A stretch of 49,364 nucleotides of DNA from Acetobacteraceae bacterium. GTDB lineage: Bacteria; Pseudomonadota; Alphaproteobacteria; Acetobacterales; Acetobacteraceae. Position 1 is the first letter of the stretch. Each line of letters opens with the position of its first letter. The notes under the pieces were generated by a model. It saw nothing but the letters and a program-made list of their open reading frames with translations. It searched no databases and had not been told where the DNA came from. The stretch is from the NCBI GenBank assembly GCA_019241425.1, contig JAFAXA010000202.1, positions 1 through 49,364 on the forward strand, in the 5' to 3' direction. Made by a program: the position numbers and the translations under genes. This document shows positions 3,860 to 11,251 of this stretch, one piece after another.

Positions 3860-3915
3860 ATGACCTCCTCCCTCTGAACCAATCCGCACACGCGGGGGCG
3901 TCGTTTCGCCTGAAC

Positions 3916-4751: not shown

Positions 4752-7700
4752 TCAGTCGGCCGTGGCGCCGCCCATCTTGGACGCCAGCGCCGGCATCCGC
4801 GACCGTCGCGGTGCCAGCCGTTGCTGGAGCCGGTCGAGATACAGATAGATCACGGGCGTCGTGTACAAGGTGAGCACCTGGCTCAGCAGCAAGCCGCCGA
4901 CCATCGCGTAGCCGAGCGGCTTGCGGAACTCCGATCCCGCGCCGGACCCGAGCATCAGCGGCAGGCCGCTCAGCATCGCCGCCATCGTCGTCATGAGAAT
5001 CGGGCGGAAACGCAGCAGGCAGGCCTGCCGGATCGCGTTATGCGGCGTTTCGCCGTCGCGCCGCTCGGCCGAGATCGCGAAATCGACCATCATGATCCCG
5101 TTCTTCTTGACGATGCCGATCAGCAGGATGAGGCCGATCAGCGCAATCACCGACAGATCATAGCCGGCGGCGAGCAGGATCAGCAGCGCCCCCACGCCCG
5201 CCGAAGGCAAGGTCGAAAGGATGGTCAGCGGCAGGATGTAGCTCTCGTACAAAATGCCGAGGATGATGTAGACCGTCACCAGCGCGGCGGCGATCAGATA
5301 GGGCTGGCTCGCCAGCGACGTCTGGAACGCCTGCGCCGTTCCTTGGAACAACCCGACCAGCGTCGGCGGCATTCCCATCTGCGCCACCGCCTGCTGGATC
5401 GCGTCGGTCGCCTCGCCGAGCGCCGCGCCCGGTGCCAGATTGAACGACAGCGTCACCGCCGGAAATTGGCTCTGATGGTTGATCGAGAGCGGCTGCACGG
5501 GCGCCGTGTCGATATGCACGAAGGTCGAAAGCGGCACCGCCTGGCCGGACGCGGATTTGACGTAGAGCTTGTTGAGCGTCGCCACCGTCCCCTGCATATC
5601 CGGCGGCACTTCCAGAATGAGGTGGTACGAGTTGCTCTGGGTGAAATACTGCGTGACCTGCCGCTGCCCGAACGCGTCGTACAACGTGTCGTCGATCGCC
5701 TGCGGCTGGATGCCGAAACGCGCCGCCTGATCGCGGTCGATGGTGAGCGTCGCGGTGGTGCCCGACATCTGCTGATCCGTCGCCACGTCCCGCAGGAGCG
5801 GGATCTTCTTCATGGCATCGAGGACTTTCGGCGCCCATTGGTAGAGTTCGGCCAGGTCGGGATCTTGCAGCGTGTATTGATACTGGGTTTTCGCCAGCCG
5901 GGCGCCCACGTTGATGTCCTGCGCGGCTTGCAGATTAAGGCTTGCGCCTTCGACCGCCATCAGCTTCGGGCGGATACGGTTGATGAAGTCCTGCGCCGAA
6001 CCGCCGGTACGCTTCGCCCAGGGTTTCAACGCGATATACAGGCGGCCGTTATTGCCGGTCTGGCCGCCGATGCCCGCGCCGACCGTTGAGGAATAGCCGG
6101 CAACGTCCGGGTCGGCGCCGATCACGTCGTTCAGCTTCCGCTGCAAGCGCGACATTTCGGTGAACGAGACGTCCTGCGCGCCCTCCGTCACGCCGACGAC
6201 GACGCCGGTATCCTGCTGCGGAAAGAAGCCCTTCGGGATGTAGACGTAGAGAAACGCCGTGAGACCCAGCGTGGCGAGGAAAACGAGCAGGGTCACGAAC
6301 TGGAACCGGAGCGCGATGTCGAGCGTCCGCCGGTAGAAGCCAACCATGCCCTCGAACATCGCTTCGATCATGCGATACAGGCGGCCGTGCCGTCCTTCGT
6401 CATGCTTGAGGAAGCGCGAGCACATCATCGGCGTGAGCGTCAAGGAGACCACGGCCGACACGGCGACCGCGATCGTTACCGTGACCGCGAACTCCCGGAA
6501 CAGCCGGCCGACGATGCCGCCCATCAGCAGCAGCGGAATGAACACGGCGATCAGCGACAGGCTGATCGAGACGATTGTGAAGCCGATCTCGCCCGCGCCC
6601 TTCAGCGCCGCCTCCATCGGCGGCAATCCCTCCTCGATATGGCGGTAAATGTTCTCGAGCATCACGATCGCATCGTCGACCACGAAGCCGACCGCGATCG
6701 TGAGCGCCATCAGCGACAGATTATCGAGGCTGAAGCCGAGCAGGAACATCACCGCGAAGCTGCACACCAGGGCCACGGGGACGGTGATGCTCGGAATGAT
6801 CGTCGCCCAGAAACTGCGCAGGAACAGGAAGATCACCATCACCACGAGTGCAACCGAAAGCATCAGGGTGAACTGCACGTCGGCCACCGACGCCCGGATC
6901 GTCTGCGTCCGGTCCATCACGATCCGCACATGGACGGAAGGCGGGATCGCCGCTTCCAGCCGGGGCAGCGCCGCCTTGATGCGCTCCACGGTGTCGATCA
7001 CGTTTGCGCCGGGCTGCTTGAAGACGAGCAACTGGATGCCGCGATGGCCGCTCTGCCAGCCCGCGAGTTCGCGGTTCTCCGGCCCGTCGACCGCGTGGCC
7101 GATATCGCTCACCCGCACCGCGCCGCCGTTGCGGTAGGCGACAATGAGATTGTCGTATTCGGACGCCTTGGTGAGCTGGTCGTTGCTGTAGATCGCGAAG
7201 GAGCGTTTGGTGCCGTCGATCGACCCTTTGGGACTGTCGACCGTCGCGTTGGTGAGGGCGTAGCGCACATCCTCCAGCGTCAGCCCCATGGACGCGAGCT
7301 TGGCCGGATCGATCTGCACCCGCACGGCGCGCTTCTGCTCGCCGCCGATCAGCACCTGCGAAACGCCGAGCACCTGCGACAATTGCTGCGAAAGGATGTT
7401 GTCCGCGTAATCGTCGACGTCGATCAGCGGCAAATCGTCCGACTGAACGGACAGGATCAGGATCGGACTGTCGGCCGGATTGACCTTGCGGTACGTGGGC
7501 GGGCTCGGCAGGTTCTTCGGCAACTGGCCGCCCGCGGCGTTGATCGCGGCCTGGATGTCGCCGGCCGCGGCGTCGATGTTGCGTTCCAGATCGAACTGCA
7601 CGGTCACCTGGCTCTGTCCGAGCACGCTGATCGACGTCATCTGCGACACGCCCGAGATCTGCGCGAACTGGTATTCGAGCGGCTGGGCGACCGTGCTCGC

Positions 7701-7877
7701 CATGGTTTCCGGGCTCGCCCCCGGGAACTTGCCGGTGACGACGATGGTCGGGAAATCCACGCGCGGCAACGGCGCAACCGGCAGGAACGGATAGGCGGCG
7801 ATGCCCACCAGCAGAAACGCCGCCATCAGGAGCGAGGTGGCAACCGGCCGGTGGATGAAGGGCGTCGAAATGCTCAT
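4752..7877 (-). CDS. RND multidrug efflux permease (HAE1/MdtB-MuxB type)
   Basis: The 1041-residue inner-membrane permease starts MSISTPFIHRPVATSLLM, the standard HAE1 beginning, so I chose ATG 7877 over the longer reading. It has the expected 2 x 6 transmembrane layout with two large periplasmic loops. The proton-relay Asp pair lies in TM4 (AVGFVVDDAIVMLENI) and the TM10 Lys in LLIGIVKKNGIMMVDFA. The length is typical (1030-1050). It is proton-driven and works with the adaptor encoded 19 nt upstream; no outer-membrane channel gene is nearby, so a TolC-like protein must come from elsewhere. The long N-loop motif SGVSQMTSISVLGQSQVTVQF resembles MdtB/MdtC-type pumps. The substrate is unknown. 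Confidence 0.95.
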   Translation of the reverse strand: MSISTPFIHRPVATSLLMAAFLLVGIAAYPFLPVAPLPRVDFPTIVVTGKFPGASPETMASTVAQPLEYQFAQISGVSQMTSISVLGQSQVTVQFDLERNIDAAAGDIQAAINAAGGQLPKNLPSPPTYRKVNPADSPILILSVQSDDLPLIDVDDYADNILSQQLSQVLGVSQVLIGGEQKRAVRVQIDPAKLASMGLTLEDVRYALTNATVDSPKGSIDGTKRSFAIYSNDQLTKASEYDNLIVAYRNGGAVRVSDIGHAVDGPENRELAGWQSGHRGIQLLVFKQPGANVIDTVERIKAALPRLEAAIPPSVHVRIVMDRTQTIRASVADVQFTLMLSVALVVMVIFLFLRSFWATIIPSITVPVALVCSFAVMFLLGFSLDNLSLMALTIAVGFVVDDAIVMLENIYRHIEEGLPPMEAALKGAGEIGFTIVSISLSLIAVFIPLLLMGGIVGRLFREFAVTVTIAVAVSAVVSLTLTPMMCSRFLKHDEGRHGRLYRMIEAMFEGMVGFYRRTLDIALRFQFVTLLVFLATLGLTAFLYVYIPKGFFPQQDTGVVVGVTEGAQDVSFTEMSRLQRKLNDVIGADPDVAGYSSTVGAGIGGQTGNNGRLYIALKPWAKRTGGSAQDFINRIRPKLMAVEGASLNLQAAQDINVGARLAKTQYQYTLQDPDLAELYQWAPKVLDAMKKIPLLRDVATDQQMSGTTATLTIDRDQAARFGIQPQAIDDTLYDAFGQRQVTQYFTQSNSYHLILEVPPDMQGTVATLNKLYVKSASGQAVPLSTFVHIDTAPVQPLSINHQSQFPAVTLSFNLAPGAALGEATDAIQQAVAQMGMPPTLVGLFQGTAQAFQTSLASQPYLIAAALVTVYIILGILYESYILPLTILSTLPSAGVGALLILLAAGYDLSVIALIGLILLIGIVKKNGIMMVDFAISAERRDGETPHNAIRQACLLRFRPILMTTMAAMLSGLPLMLGSGAGSEFRKPLGYAMVGGLLLSQVLTLYTTPVIYLYLDRLQQRLAPRRSRMPALASKMGGATAD

Positions 7878-7896
7878 GCGCGATGCGTCCTGCCGA

Positions 7897-9078
7897 TCAT
7901 CCGCCGGACGCGCTCGCCGCGTCGGCCGTTCCCGCAGCCGCCGGCTGCGCATCCGTGTTGACGGCGACCTTCGTTCCCGTTTGCAGGCGCGACTGGCCGC
8001 TCACCACGACCATGTCGCCCGCCGACAGACCGCTCGCGATCGCCGCGACGCCATTGGTGCGCTGCGCCACCGTGACATTCTGCCGGGCAACGGTCTGGTC
8101 CGGCCTTACGACATAGACGAACAACGCGTCCGGGCCGTGCTGGATCGCGATCCCCGGCACGGTGACGGCGTCGTGCTTGGTGTCCACCAGCAAACGGGCT
8201 TCCACGAACTGGCCGGGCCACAGCCGGCCGGCGGTGTTCGGAAACGTCGCCTTCAGCCGGATGGTGCCAGTCGCCGGATCGATCGCGTTGTCCGGTGTCA
8301 GCAACTCGCCGGTGTCGAGCAGGTTGCGGTCGTCGGCGGATAGCGCCTGCACCGGCAATTTGCGGTTCGCCATGGCGTCCGAGATGCGACCGAGCTGGTT
8401 CTGCGGCAAGGTGAACACGACGGAGATCGGCTGCTGCTGCGTGATGGTCACGATCCCGCCCTGATCGCCCGCATGGACGAGATTGCCGGGATCGACGAGA
8501 CGCAAGCCGACCCGTCCATCGACCGGCGAGGTGATGTAGCAGAAACTGAGATTGAGCTGGGCGGCGTCGATCGCCGCCTGATCGCCCTGGATCGCGGCCT
8601 CGGTCTGGCTGACGGACGCTTTCTGCGTGTCCACCTGCTGGCGCGATGCGAACTGGCTTTGCGCCAGCGAGGAATAGCGTTTCAGATCGAGTTGGGCGTT
8701 GCTTTCCTGCGCTTCATCCTGCGCCTTCTTCGCCAGCGCCCCGCTCAGCACCGCCTGATAGGGGCGCGGATCGATCACCGCGATCAAATCGTTCTTGCGC
8801 ACGAACTGGCCTTCGGTCGGCACGAATTGCTGCAACGTTCCGTCCACTCTGGCGCGGATCAATACGGAATAGAACGCCTGCACGGTGCCGATCCCGTCGA
8901 GATACACCGGCACGTCCTGCCGCGTGGCCGTTGCAACCGTTACGGGAACGCCGGACTGATTGCCGTCGGCGGCACGCGCGGCAAGCGGAAGGGCGCATAC
9001 CATTGCCAACGCGAACGCCCTTACAACCGCGTGCAGGCGCCCTCCGATTCTTCGATACGCCGGTTGTCCGTTGTTCAT
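7897..9078 (-). CDS. RND efflux periplasmic adaptor subunit (MdtA-like membrane fusion protein)
   Basis: The 393-residue protein bridges the RND permease and an outer-membrane channel. Residues 1-37 contain a signal sequence (VVRAFALAMVCALPLAARA). Then come the lipoyl half-motif VTVATATRQDVPVYLDGIGTV, an alpha-hairpin around 110-170 (KKAQDEAQESNAQLDLKRY), the second lipoyl half (YITSPVDGRVGLRLVDPGN) and beta-barrel and membrane-proximal parts ending in ASGLSAGDMVVVSGQSRLQ. No lipobox Cys is visible, so it is probably not a lipoprotein. An upstream ATG at 9126 would add 16 residues before the signal peptide; the shorter start places the signal sequence better. It leads a two-gene operon with the permease. 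Confidence 0.92.
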   Translation of the reverse strand: MNNGQPAYRRIGGRLHAVVRAFALAMVCALPLAARAADGNQSGVPVTVATATRQDVPVYLDGIGTVQAFYSVLIRARVDGTLQQFVPTEGQFVRKNDLIAVIDPRPYQAVLSGALAKKAQDEAQESNAQLDLKRYSSLAQSQFASRQQVDTQKASVSQTEAAIQGDQAAIDAAQLNLSFCYITSPVDGRVGLRLVDPGNLVHAGDQGGIVTITQQQPISVVFTLPQNQLGRISDAMANRKLPVQALSADDRNLLDTGELLTPDNAIDPATGTIRLKATFPNTAGRLWPGQFVEARLLVDTKHDAVTVPGIAIQHGPDALFVYVVRPDQTVARQNVTVAQRTNGVAAIASGLSAGDMVVVSGQSRLQTGTKVAVNTDAQPAAAGTADAASASGG

Positions 9079-9194
9079 TGCCGAGGCCGCCTTGTTCTGC
9101 CGCCACGCACGGCGACACCCCACCATGATGCGCGCGGACTCTCAGTTTCTTCAACGCTGCATGAAGGAAACGTCATGCGCGGGCGAAGTCGGCG

Positions 9195-9917
9195 TCATCC
9201 GCCGATCCGCAACGGGCGCGCAGCCTTCGGATCACCGATCGGAATGACGCGGATGGCGCGCGCCGGACCGGCCGGGATGATGACGGCAACCCGGTTGGAC
9301 GGGGCCGCCGGCAGGCTCGCGGCCCAGGCGCGGCCGGGATCGGCCCAATGCGCGGCTTCGGCCCGCTGCCGCCTGCTTCCCTCCGGCCACACCGCCAGAA
9401 CCTGCCGCGCATAGGCCTCGGCAAGCTCGGGGGTGGTCGAATGATAAAAGGCGGCGGCCTGCGCCCAGGAATTGGTCTGGCCGAACAGGCGCGAAAGGAA
9501 ACGCGCCGCGTAGGCGACATTCGCTGCCGGATCGAACGCCTCGTCGAGCGATGCGAAGGCGCGCGGATGATGGAGAAGGTCCACCTGCATGCAGCCGACG
9601 TCGATCGCGCGCACGCCGCGCTCTTGCAAGGCCTGCACCGCCGCGATCGCTTCCGCCTTGGTGGCATAGAACGCGCCTTGACCCTCCGCATTGATCGTCC
9701 ACGGCCAGGGCTGCCAGTCGCCGCTGCGGTCGTCCCGCCGGCCGCTCTTGACGCGGCCGATCGCCGCCAGCAAGTGATCCGGGACTGAAACCAGCCGCTC
9801 GGTAGCGGCGATCGCGGCCCCGCATTGCCGTCCCGGAGTCGCGCTTTCCGCATACCCCCGCGCACAGGCGAGCGGCAGCAGCAGCAGCAGAAGCAGAAGC
9901 AACGGGCGGGCGCGCAT
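9195..9917 (-). CDS. SLT-domain lytic transglycosylase-like protein with catalytic Glu replaced by Lys
   Basis: The 240-residue protein starts at ATG 9917 with a strong signal sequence (residues 4-20, a run of Leu, then PLACA). The SLT fold is recognisable: HLLAAIGRVKSGRRD, PWPWTINAEGQG, IDVGCMQVDLLHHP, FDPAANVAYAARFLSRLF and WAQAAAFYHSTTPELAEAYA. Related proteins carry a catalytic glutamate in the xVESGR context; here residue 57 is lysine, codon AAG at 9749-9747, one transition from GAG. The remaining family residues look intact. It may be inactive, a binding protein, or a point mutation. A reading to 9974 adds 19 residues before the signal peptide and is unlikely. It sits upstream of the RND adaptor on the same strand; a functional link is not evident. 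Confidence 0.85.
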   Translation of the reverse strand: MRARPLLLLLLLLLPLACARGYAESATPGRQCGAAIAATERLVSVPDHLLAAIGRVKSGRRDDRSGDWQPWPWTINAEGQGAFYATKAEAIAAVQALQERGVRAIDVGCMQVDLLHHPRAFASLDEAFDPAANVAYAARFLSRLFGQTNSWAQAAAFYHSTTPELAEAYARQVLAVWPEGSRRQRAEAAHWADPGRAWAASLPAAPSNRVAVIIPAGPARAIRVIPIGDPKAARPLRIGG

Positions 9918-10039
9918 CGCCGTCTCTATGCCGGTGTCGCAGACCCGAGTCTCCGCCCGTTTCGCTTCGCTCACGATCTCGTGCGCGTCCCCGGGCGTAT
10001 TTGTCCTGCCTCCATACGAGAAATTAAGTTGTAACAGCG

Positions 10040-10141
10040 CGCGTTCGATCTTACCTTGTGCGTCGCAGCAAGCTTCGGCCTGCTGTTTCTTGGACGTTTC
10101 CTCCCTAAACTTGGCGGAGCCTCATGGCTCCGCCTTTTTTT
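10040..10141 (+). ncRNA. Candidate trans-acting sRNA with UCCUCCC hairpin loop
   Basis: Three successive hairpins lie in a gene-free plus-strand stretch. Hairpin 1 at 10066-10085 has a C(UUCG)G-closed loop and one mismatch. Hairpin 2 at 10096-10110 is GTTTCCTCCCTAAAC, a 4-bp stem presenting the anti-Shine-Dalgarno motif UCCUCCC. Hairpin 3 at 10113-10134 is an intrinsic terminator. Presentation of UCCUCCC in loops is the hallmark of the alphaproteobacterial 'cuckoo' sRNAs. The 5' end is uncertain: a weak -35-like TTGTCC at 10001-10006 and A/T-rich sequence at 10021-10035 suggest a start near 10035-10045. It converges on the amidohydrolase gene, whose stop codon begins at the last T of the terminator tract. 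Confidence 0.45.
10113..10141 (+). terminator. Rho-independent terminator
   Basis: A perfect 9-bp stem, GGCGGAGCC (10113-10121) with GGCTCCGCC (10126-10134), closes a TCAT loop and is followed by seven T on the plus strand. In the minus direction the T tract is missing, so it serves plus-strand transcription. Because no plus-strand protein gene ends here, it supports a small RNA transcript. Confidence 0.88.
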
Positions 10142-11052
10142 CATGGCCGTCCCAGTAAGTCCGGCGCGTCGTGGGCCAAAGCGTGCACCAACCGCCCGAC
10201 ATCCTCCTGCACCCGCCGGAAACCCGGTCGCGGCTCCAGAGTCGCCTCGACCATATAGAGGCTGCGGTTGATCTCGACCTGCAATGCCTGAACACCCTCC
10301 GGCGGCCGCCCGTAATGGCGCGTGATGTAGCCGCCGGCATACGGTTCGTTGCGCCGCACCGAATAGCCGAGCGCCCGCAGCGTCCGCTCGAACCAGGCGG
10401 TGATCGCGGGTGCGCAGGTCGTGCCATACGCATCGCCCAGCACGACATCCGCGTGCGACGTATGCTCGGCGATGCTGTGCGATCCCTGACGGCGCCCGTC
10501 GCCGCTGCTTGCCGGCATGGAATGGCAGTCGACCAGCAGGCACGCCCCGAACGCCTGCCTGGTTTCGAGAACCAGCGCCGCCAGCGCGTCGTGGAACGGC
10601 TGCCAGAAGCTCCGCACCCGCCGTTCCGCTTCGGCGAAGGGCAGCTTGGCGCGGTAGATCGGCTCGCCCGAGGCGACGATCCGGGCGATCATGCCAAGGC
10701 CCGCGCCGACGCGGGCACTGCCGGTATTGACCCAGGCCGGCAGCCGCTCCTGGAACATCGCCGGGTCTAATTCCCAGCGCTCGCGGTTGGCGTCGCAAAA
10801 GGCGCGCGGAAAGGTCGCCGCCAGCAGCGGCGCGCCGGCTTCCGGCGCGGCTTCGAACAGTTCCTCGACGAAGCTGTCCTCGCTCCGCCGCAAGGCCAGC
10901 GGCTCCAGCCGTGACAGCGCCAGGAAGTCCGGAGCATAGAACCGGCCGGAATGCGCCGAGGTAAACACGAGCGGCGCGGTTTGCCGCGCCGGGCGGCTGA
11001 TGACGAAGGGCGGCGCGCCGGCGGCGGCGGCGTCGGAAACCGGCAGATCCAT
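10141..11052 (-). CDS. N-formylglutamate amidohydrolase family protein
   Basis: The 303-residue protein shows the family pattern: LVFTSAHSGRFYAPDF (metal-binding H/S region), RRSEDSFVEELFEAAPEAG, ATFPRAFCDANRERWELD, LLVDCHSMP (metal-binding His) and VEINRSLYMVE near the C-terminus. The family removes formate from N-formyl-glutamate at the end of one histidine degradation route, but many homologues outside hut operons act on other N-formyl or N-acyl substrates. No hut genes flank it here, so the exact substrate is open. It is cytosolic with no signal peptide. The stop codon at 10143-10141 touches the T tract of the convergent terminator. Confidence 0.9.
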   Translation of the reverse strand: MDLPVSDAAAAGAPPFVISRPARQTAPLVFTSAHSGRFYAPDFLALSRLEPLALRRSEDSFVEELFEAAPEAGAPLLAATFPRAFCDANRERWELDPAMFQERLPAWVNTGSARVGAGLGMIARIVASGEPIYRAKLPFAEAERRVRSFWQPFHDALAALVLETRQAFGACLLVDCHSMPASSGDGRRQGSHSIAEHTSHADVVLGDAYGTTCAPAITAWFERTLRALGYSVRRNEPYAGGYITRHYGRPPEGVQALQVEINRSLYMVEATLEPRPGFRRVQEDVGRLVHALAHDAPDLLGRP

Positions 11053-11176: not shown

Positions 11177-11251
11177 GGGCGCGTAGCTCAGCGGGAGAGC
11201 ACCACCTTGACACGGTGGGGGTCACAGGTTCGATCCCTGTCGCGCCCACCA
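11177..11251 (+). tRNA. tRNA-Val(GAC)
   Basis: The acceptor stem GGGCGCG (11177-11183) pairs with CGCGCCC (11241-11247), followed by discriminator A and an encoded CCA (11249-11251). The D arm contains AGCTCAGCGGGAGAGC. The anticodon stem CCACC/GGTGG (11202-11206, 11214-11218) encloses loop TTGACAC with anticodon GAC at 11209-11211. The T arm contains GGTTCGATCC. The cloverleaf is complete and closely resembles alphaproteobacterial tRNA-Val(GAC). Confidence 0.97.

Follow-up and report, generated by a model that had tools for sequence, protein, structure and literature searches.

The MmgR sRNAs, which also go by the names αr8 and SisA, are a well-defined family. PhaR, a regulator of interest here, senses the carbon-storage polymer PHB. 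In S. meliloti, mmgR is repressed by PhaR (AniA), whose motif includes YGCRNYGCR and which bound the mmgR site CAATTGTGCACCGCAGCATTA in EMSA (PMC12542648). According to a 2020 review, S. meliloti MmgR had at that time no described direct mRNA target (PMC7143759). In a 2025 Caulobacter study, the hallmarks of αr8 were a Rho-independent terminator and a single-stranded 5'-UUUCCUCCCU-3' located 3' of a weak hairpin, the canonical neighbour gene encoded N-formylglutamate amidohydrolase (FGase), and SisA repressed through the αr8 10-mer with Hfq (PMC12559287).

Here we analyzed a 49,364-nt stretch of an Acetobacteraceae contig (JAFAXA010000202.1, hereafter the window), in which a noncoding unit on the plus strand, with an anti-Shine-Dalgarno core and a terminator ending in U7, occupies positions 10040-10141. 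The original prediction had taken this unit for a cuckoo-type sRNA. The features of the locus were as follows.

9195-9974, minus strand: SLT-domain (lytic transglycosylase-like) gene (PF01464, E = 2.7e-5), divergent from the sRNA.
10029-10057, plus strand: presumed promoter from alignment with relatives, with -35-like TTGTAA (10029-10034), a 17-nt spacer and -10-like TACCTT (10052-10057).
10059-10067, plus strand: PhaR-box-like site TGCGTCGCA, matching the S. meliloti PhaR motif YGCRNYGCR.
10065-10141, plus strand: predicted mature sRNA of ~77 nt, its 5' end placed from the promoter position and its 3' end from the terminator.
10065-10086, plus strand: 5' hairpin GCAGCAAGC-UUCG-GCCUGCUGU, in both MFE and centroid folds.
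10113-10141, plus strand: Rho-independent terminator from a terminator scan, with a 9-bp stem (10113-10134), a 4-nt loop and T7 (10135-10141).
10141-11052, minus strand: FGase gene (PF05013, E = 3.3e-72), convergent with the sRNA.

The Rfam covariance model RF00519 (suhB/mmgR) matched positions 10078-10149 of the plus strand over its full length at 48.6 bits, against a curated cutoff of 41 bits. The anti-Shine-Dalgarno seed at 10097-10106 (plus strand) was UUUCCUCCCU, identical to the αr8 10-mer (PMC12559287); a Rho-independent terminator lay directly 3' of it, and the PF05013 gene adjoined the sRNA, providing the FGase linkage of αr8. The window locus is a new, FGase-linked member of the known MmgR/αr8/SisA family, and a real sRNA gene whose expression is predicted. 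With a recognizable family identity and the usual gene next to it, the locus is largely ordinary, and the value of the window RNA itself lies chiefly in its correct annotation. Rfam matches to SorX, SorY and ncS025 were far below cutoff, and SorX had no match above cutoff across the genome. Elsewhere in the window, a tRNA-Val gene (anticodon GAC, 11177-11251) lay upstream of the FGase gene in divergent orientation, and an RND efflux pump pair (AcrB-family transporter and HlyD-type adaptor) occupied 4752-9126 on the minus strand.

Folding of positions 10030-10150 gave z = -2.77 relative to dinucleotide shuffles, with 1 of 200 shuffles as good. The UUCG-capped hairpin of the original prediction was present in the predicted folds, and relatives carried a hairpin at the equivalent position whose stem sequences differed (mean z -1.67, 52 of 78 below -1). 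The small hairpin of the family model, GCCC-UUCUU-GGGC, was degenerate in the window (GUUU-CUU-GGAC), where the stronger hairpin was that at 10065-10086. UCCUCCC was found at 10099-10105, within TTTCCTCCCT (10097-10106), and this core was mostly unpaired in the predicted ensemble; in the 77-nt form, three of its bases reached 51-69% pairing. The earlier view of the locus, as that of an sRNA whose anti-Shine-Dalgarno motif lies exposed, is upheld, and the functional idea behind it is reasonable. The strong terminator with seven T was likewise confirmed; eight of its nine base pairs were GC, and the scan returned 2 sites where 0.3 were expected. As had been noted, it serves no plus-strand protein gene, since the genes on either side lie on the minus strand. 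Its last T is also the final base of the FGase stop codon. On the FGase strand (minus, 10112-10141) no T run followed the shared stem, so that FGase mRNA may run on as an antisense transcript to the sRNA.

The source genome contained a second copy above the Rfam cutoff (contig C310, positions 5562-5635, 47.5 bits, slightly below the window copy), contradicting the earlier description of a single-copy locus and possible orphan. This copy was situated between a proline racemase-family gene and a DCC1-like gene, and had the same core as the window copy and a UUCG-type hairpin whose stem sequence differed (GUGGUGCUUCGGCAUCAC). Matches to RF00519 on three further contigs (C140, C95 and C276, at most 18.9 bits) were treated as noise. 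Across related genomes, 32 of 40 had RF00519 matches, often two to four per genome. The closest relatives of the window FGase were mostly from Acetobacteraceae or Rhodospirillales genomes, which marks the source as Acetobacteraceae-like, and in 44 of 78 of these loci with enough flanking sequence the core was 30-450 nt from the FGase gene, always in convergent orientation. Counting against the linkage, the other 34 FGase loci had no core within 450 nt, though in several it lay further off. The core was invariant in 61 aligned copies, partly through selection, because copies were picked by near match to CGTTTCCTCCC; the unselected flank TAAACTTGG was nearly invariant too. The terminator stem covaried strongly over the same 61 copies (62 double-change cells compared to 13.3 in shuffles, with 0 of 500 shuffles as good), and its pairing was 95.4%, compared to 37-67% when the stem was slid. 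The prospect, raised in the original prediction, that the hairpin sequence would be unconserved in relatives failed to materialize.

One related locus (L085) had two αr8 copies ~1 kb apart (cores at 3892 and 2848, minus strand), which flank the FGase gene on both sides, each have PhaR-like boxes and may stem from a local duplication. Two contigs in records titled Nostoc sp. CHAB 5836 (L094) and Terriglobia bacterium (L084) encoded FGases 57-58% identical to that of the window, the former beside a complete αr8 locus; both are probably mis-binned or co-cultured Acetobacteraceae DNA.

Relatives had CTTGC and TATCTT- or TAGATT-like boxes at positions equivalent to the presumed promoter; the window promoter was a weak match that a sigma-70 consensus scan did not detect. 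On this alignment the transcript probably begins near 10065 and measures ~77 nt, rather than the ~100 nt from 10040 envisaged before, with the stretch upstream serving as promoter and operator. The window promoter stretch CTTGTGCGTCGCAGCAAG held the PhaR-like motif at 10059-10067, a site that resembles CAATTGTGCACCGCAGCATTA of S. meliloti mmgR and whose equivalent position was kept in many relatives. Of 78 copies, 73 had a PhaR-like motif in the 125 nt preceding the core, compared to 15-53% in four other stretches of the same loci, a fairer range that replaced a mononucleotide-shuffle expectation of 3.5 of 82, which was too low. Matches clustered near -92 relative to the core, upstream of the -35-like CTTGC, and near -44, where the transcript presumably starts. 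The window copy had the proximal box only, without the distal box and CTTGC element of most relatives, and the C310 copy had the distal box only.

Genes for PhaR, PhaC (two clear ones), phasins and Hfq were present in the source genome, and the PhaR-like motif also preceded the probable start codons of two phasin-like genes, of which one scored below the Pfam cutoff. In a set of 40 genomes, 29 had both phaR and the sRNA and 6 had neither, with 3 encoding the sRNA only and 2 phaR only, a co-occurrence with Fisher p = 5e-4 (ignoring phylogeny and genome size). Three nearly complete genomes of the same family (G008, G013 and G022, 2.7-3.5 Mb) had neither the αr8 sRNA nor phaR. The only same-family genome with the sRNA and no detected phaR was G009 (94% complete); its sRNA promoter (L029) was without the PhaR motif and had a better -35 (TTGACT), a single case. 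A search of the literature on αr8 together with PhaR in Acetobacteraceae, its scope excluding the primary papers on MmgR phylogeny and promoters, found nothing relevant, and the PhaR-box architecture of αr8 promoters across this family may be new. This operator pattern, if functional, would carry over to a large family of mostly non-symbiotic bacteria a link between PhaR and MmgR known from one rhizobium, and it supplies concrete operator sites and candidate targets.

The sequence GGGAGGAAA occurred 23 times in the source genome, two of these being the antisense of the sRNA copies, and was found at the ribosome-binding sites of four recognizable genes, encoding phosphoglucomutase, an SDR oxidoreductase and two periplasmic substrate-binding proteins, with predicted seed duplexes between -18.6 and -22.0 kcal/mol. 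A PhaC gene carried GGGGAGGAAGGAATG (predicted duplex -20.3 kcal/mol). Phasins were rejected as direct targets, having no clearly strong pairing at their likely starts, for which the start codons are uncertain. Any strong Shine-Dalgarno sequence resembles the complement of the seed, which weighs against such pairings as targets. Among family members, substrate-binding proteins made up 26 of 68 ORFs behind GGGAGGAAA-N2-9-ATG, 11 of them TctC, a sum that counts one Peripla_BP_4 and presumes no overlap among the tallied families. This enrichment was significant against pooled controls (4 of 34, p = 0.006) but not when the control came from the same genome (4 of 21, p = 0.12), making it only suggestive, and TctC-rich genomes may drive it.

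Membership of the cuckoo/CcsR group would account for UCCUCCC as an anti-Shine-Dalgarno motif. The motif had been placed in a hairpin loop at 10096-10110; the motif itself is there, but the loop hairpin is not borne out, the 15-mer alone folding at 0 kcal/mol and the hairpin having a probability of 0.02 in the 77-nt RNA. CCUCCUCCC is absent, the sequence being UUUCCUCCCU, and RF00519 was matched above cutoff. The adjacent genes encode the SLT-domain protein and the FGase, the latter rightly recognized earlier as an amidohydrolase, and neither is a DUF1127 gene; nor is there a tandem array, the other strong copy being on another contig. We rejected the assignment on motif context and neighbours, and consider it highly improbable. 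Very little credence can be given either to a mere terminator or 3'-UTR element of another transcript, such as that of the convergent FGase gene, with no sRNA involved: the hairpin does abut the FGase stop codon, but the T run belongs to the plus strand, the minus-strand stem is followed by AAGTTTAGGG with no T run, and conservation of the core and promoter-region motifs reaches beyond the terminator. It is also unlikely that the window holds an αr8 copy by descent, now silent or decaying, whose place the C310 copy has taken. The window promoter departs from those of relatives, without the CTGCAYTGCAAAA and CTTGC elements, and the C310 copy retains the distal PhaR-like box; yet hairpin, core, proximal box and terminator are intact in the window copy, and its Rfam score is the slightly higher of the two.

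We consider it likely, with good confidence, that the window holds an FGase-linked MmgR/αr8/SisA-type sRNA gene whose product is a PhaR-controlled, Hfq-assisted trans-acting repressor at ribosome-binding sites, notwithstanding the missing distal box and CTTGC element. Its expression, 5' end, binding by PhaR, dependence on Hfq and targets are predicted, with Hfq-assisted repression and PhaR control proposed by analogy with SisA (PMC12559287) and S. meliloti mmgR (PMC12542648). The promoter at ~10029-10057 would yield an RNA of ~77 nt, and PhaR probably represses it through the box at 10059-10067. The largely single-stranded UUUCCUCCCU seed, assisted by Hfq, would pair with GGGAGGAAA-type ribosome-binding sites and block translation of transport and carbon-metabolism mRNAs, so that sRNA levels would track PHB/carbon status. 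More speculatively, and with considerable doubt, the αr8 sRNA of Acetobacteraceae might generally be controlled by paired PhaR operators and, depending on PHB status, restrain uptake systems (TctC and ABC substrate-binding proteins), perhaps along with PHB synthesis itself, as an RNA arm of the PhaR regulon retained or lost with PhaR.

Compared to described systems, the window RNA shares with S. meliloti MmgR (αr8, RF00519) the 77-nt size class, the UUUCCUCCCU core, the terminator and a PhaR-like promoter site (PMC7143759, PMC12542648). It differs from the MmgR model in its degenerate small hairpin and a separate hairpin further upstream, and S. meliloti has one copy whereas the source genome has two. 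Cuckoo RNAs and CcsR (CIN1 locus) are also alphaproteobacterial sRNAs with an anti-Shine-Dalgarno motif, but carry CCUCCUCCC in hairpin loops (PMC3927594) and are found in clustered copies linked to DUF1127 (PMC10253847). Caulobacter crescentus SisA-D resemble the window RNA in their identical 10-mer, in FGase linkage (sisA) and in occurring as several copies (PMC12559287); the SisA-D copies have no common promoter motif, whereas those of Acetobacteraceae mostly have PhaR-like boxes in common.
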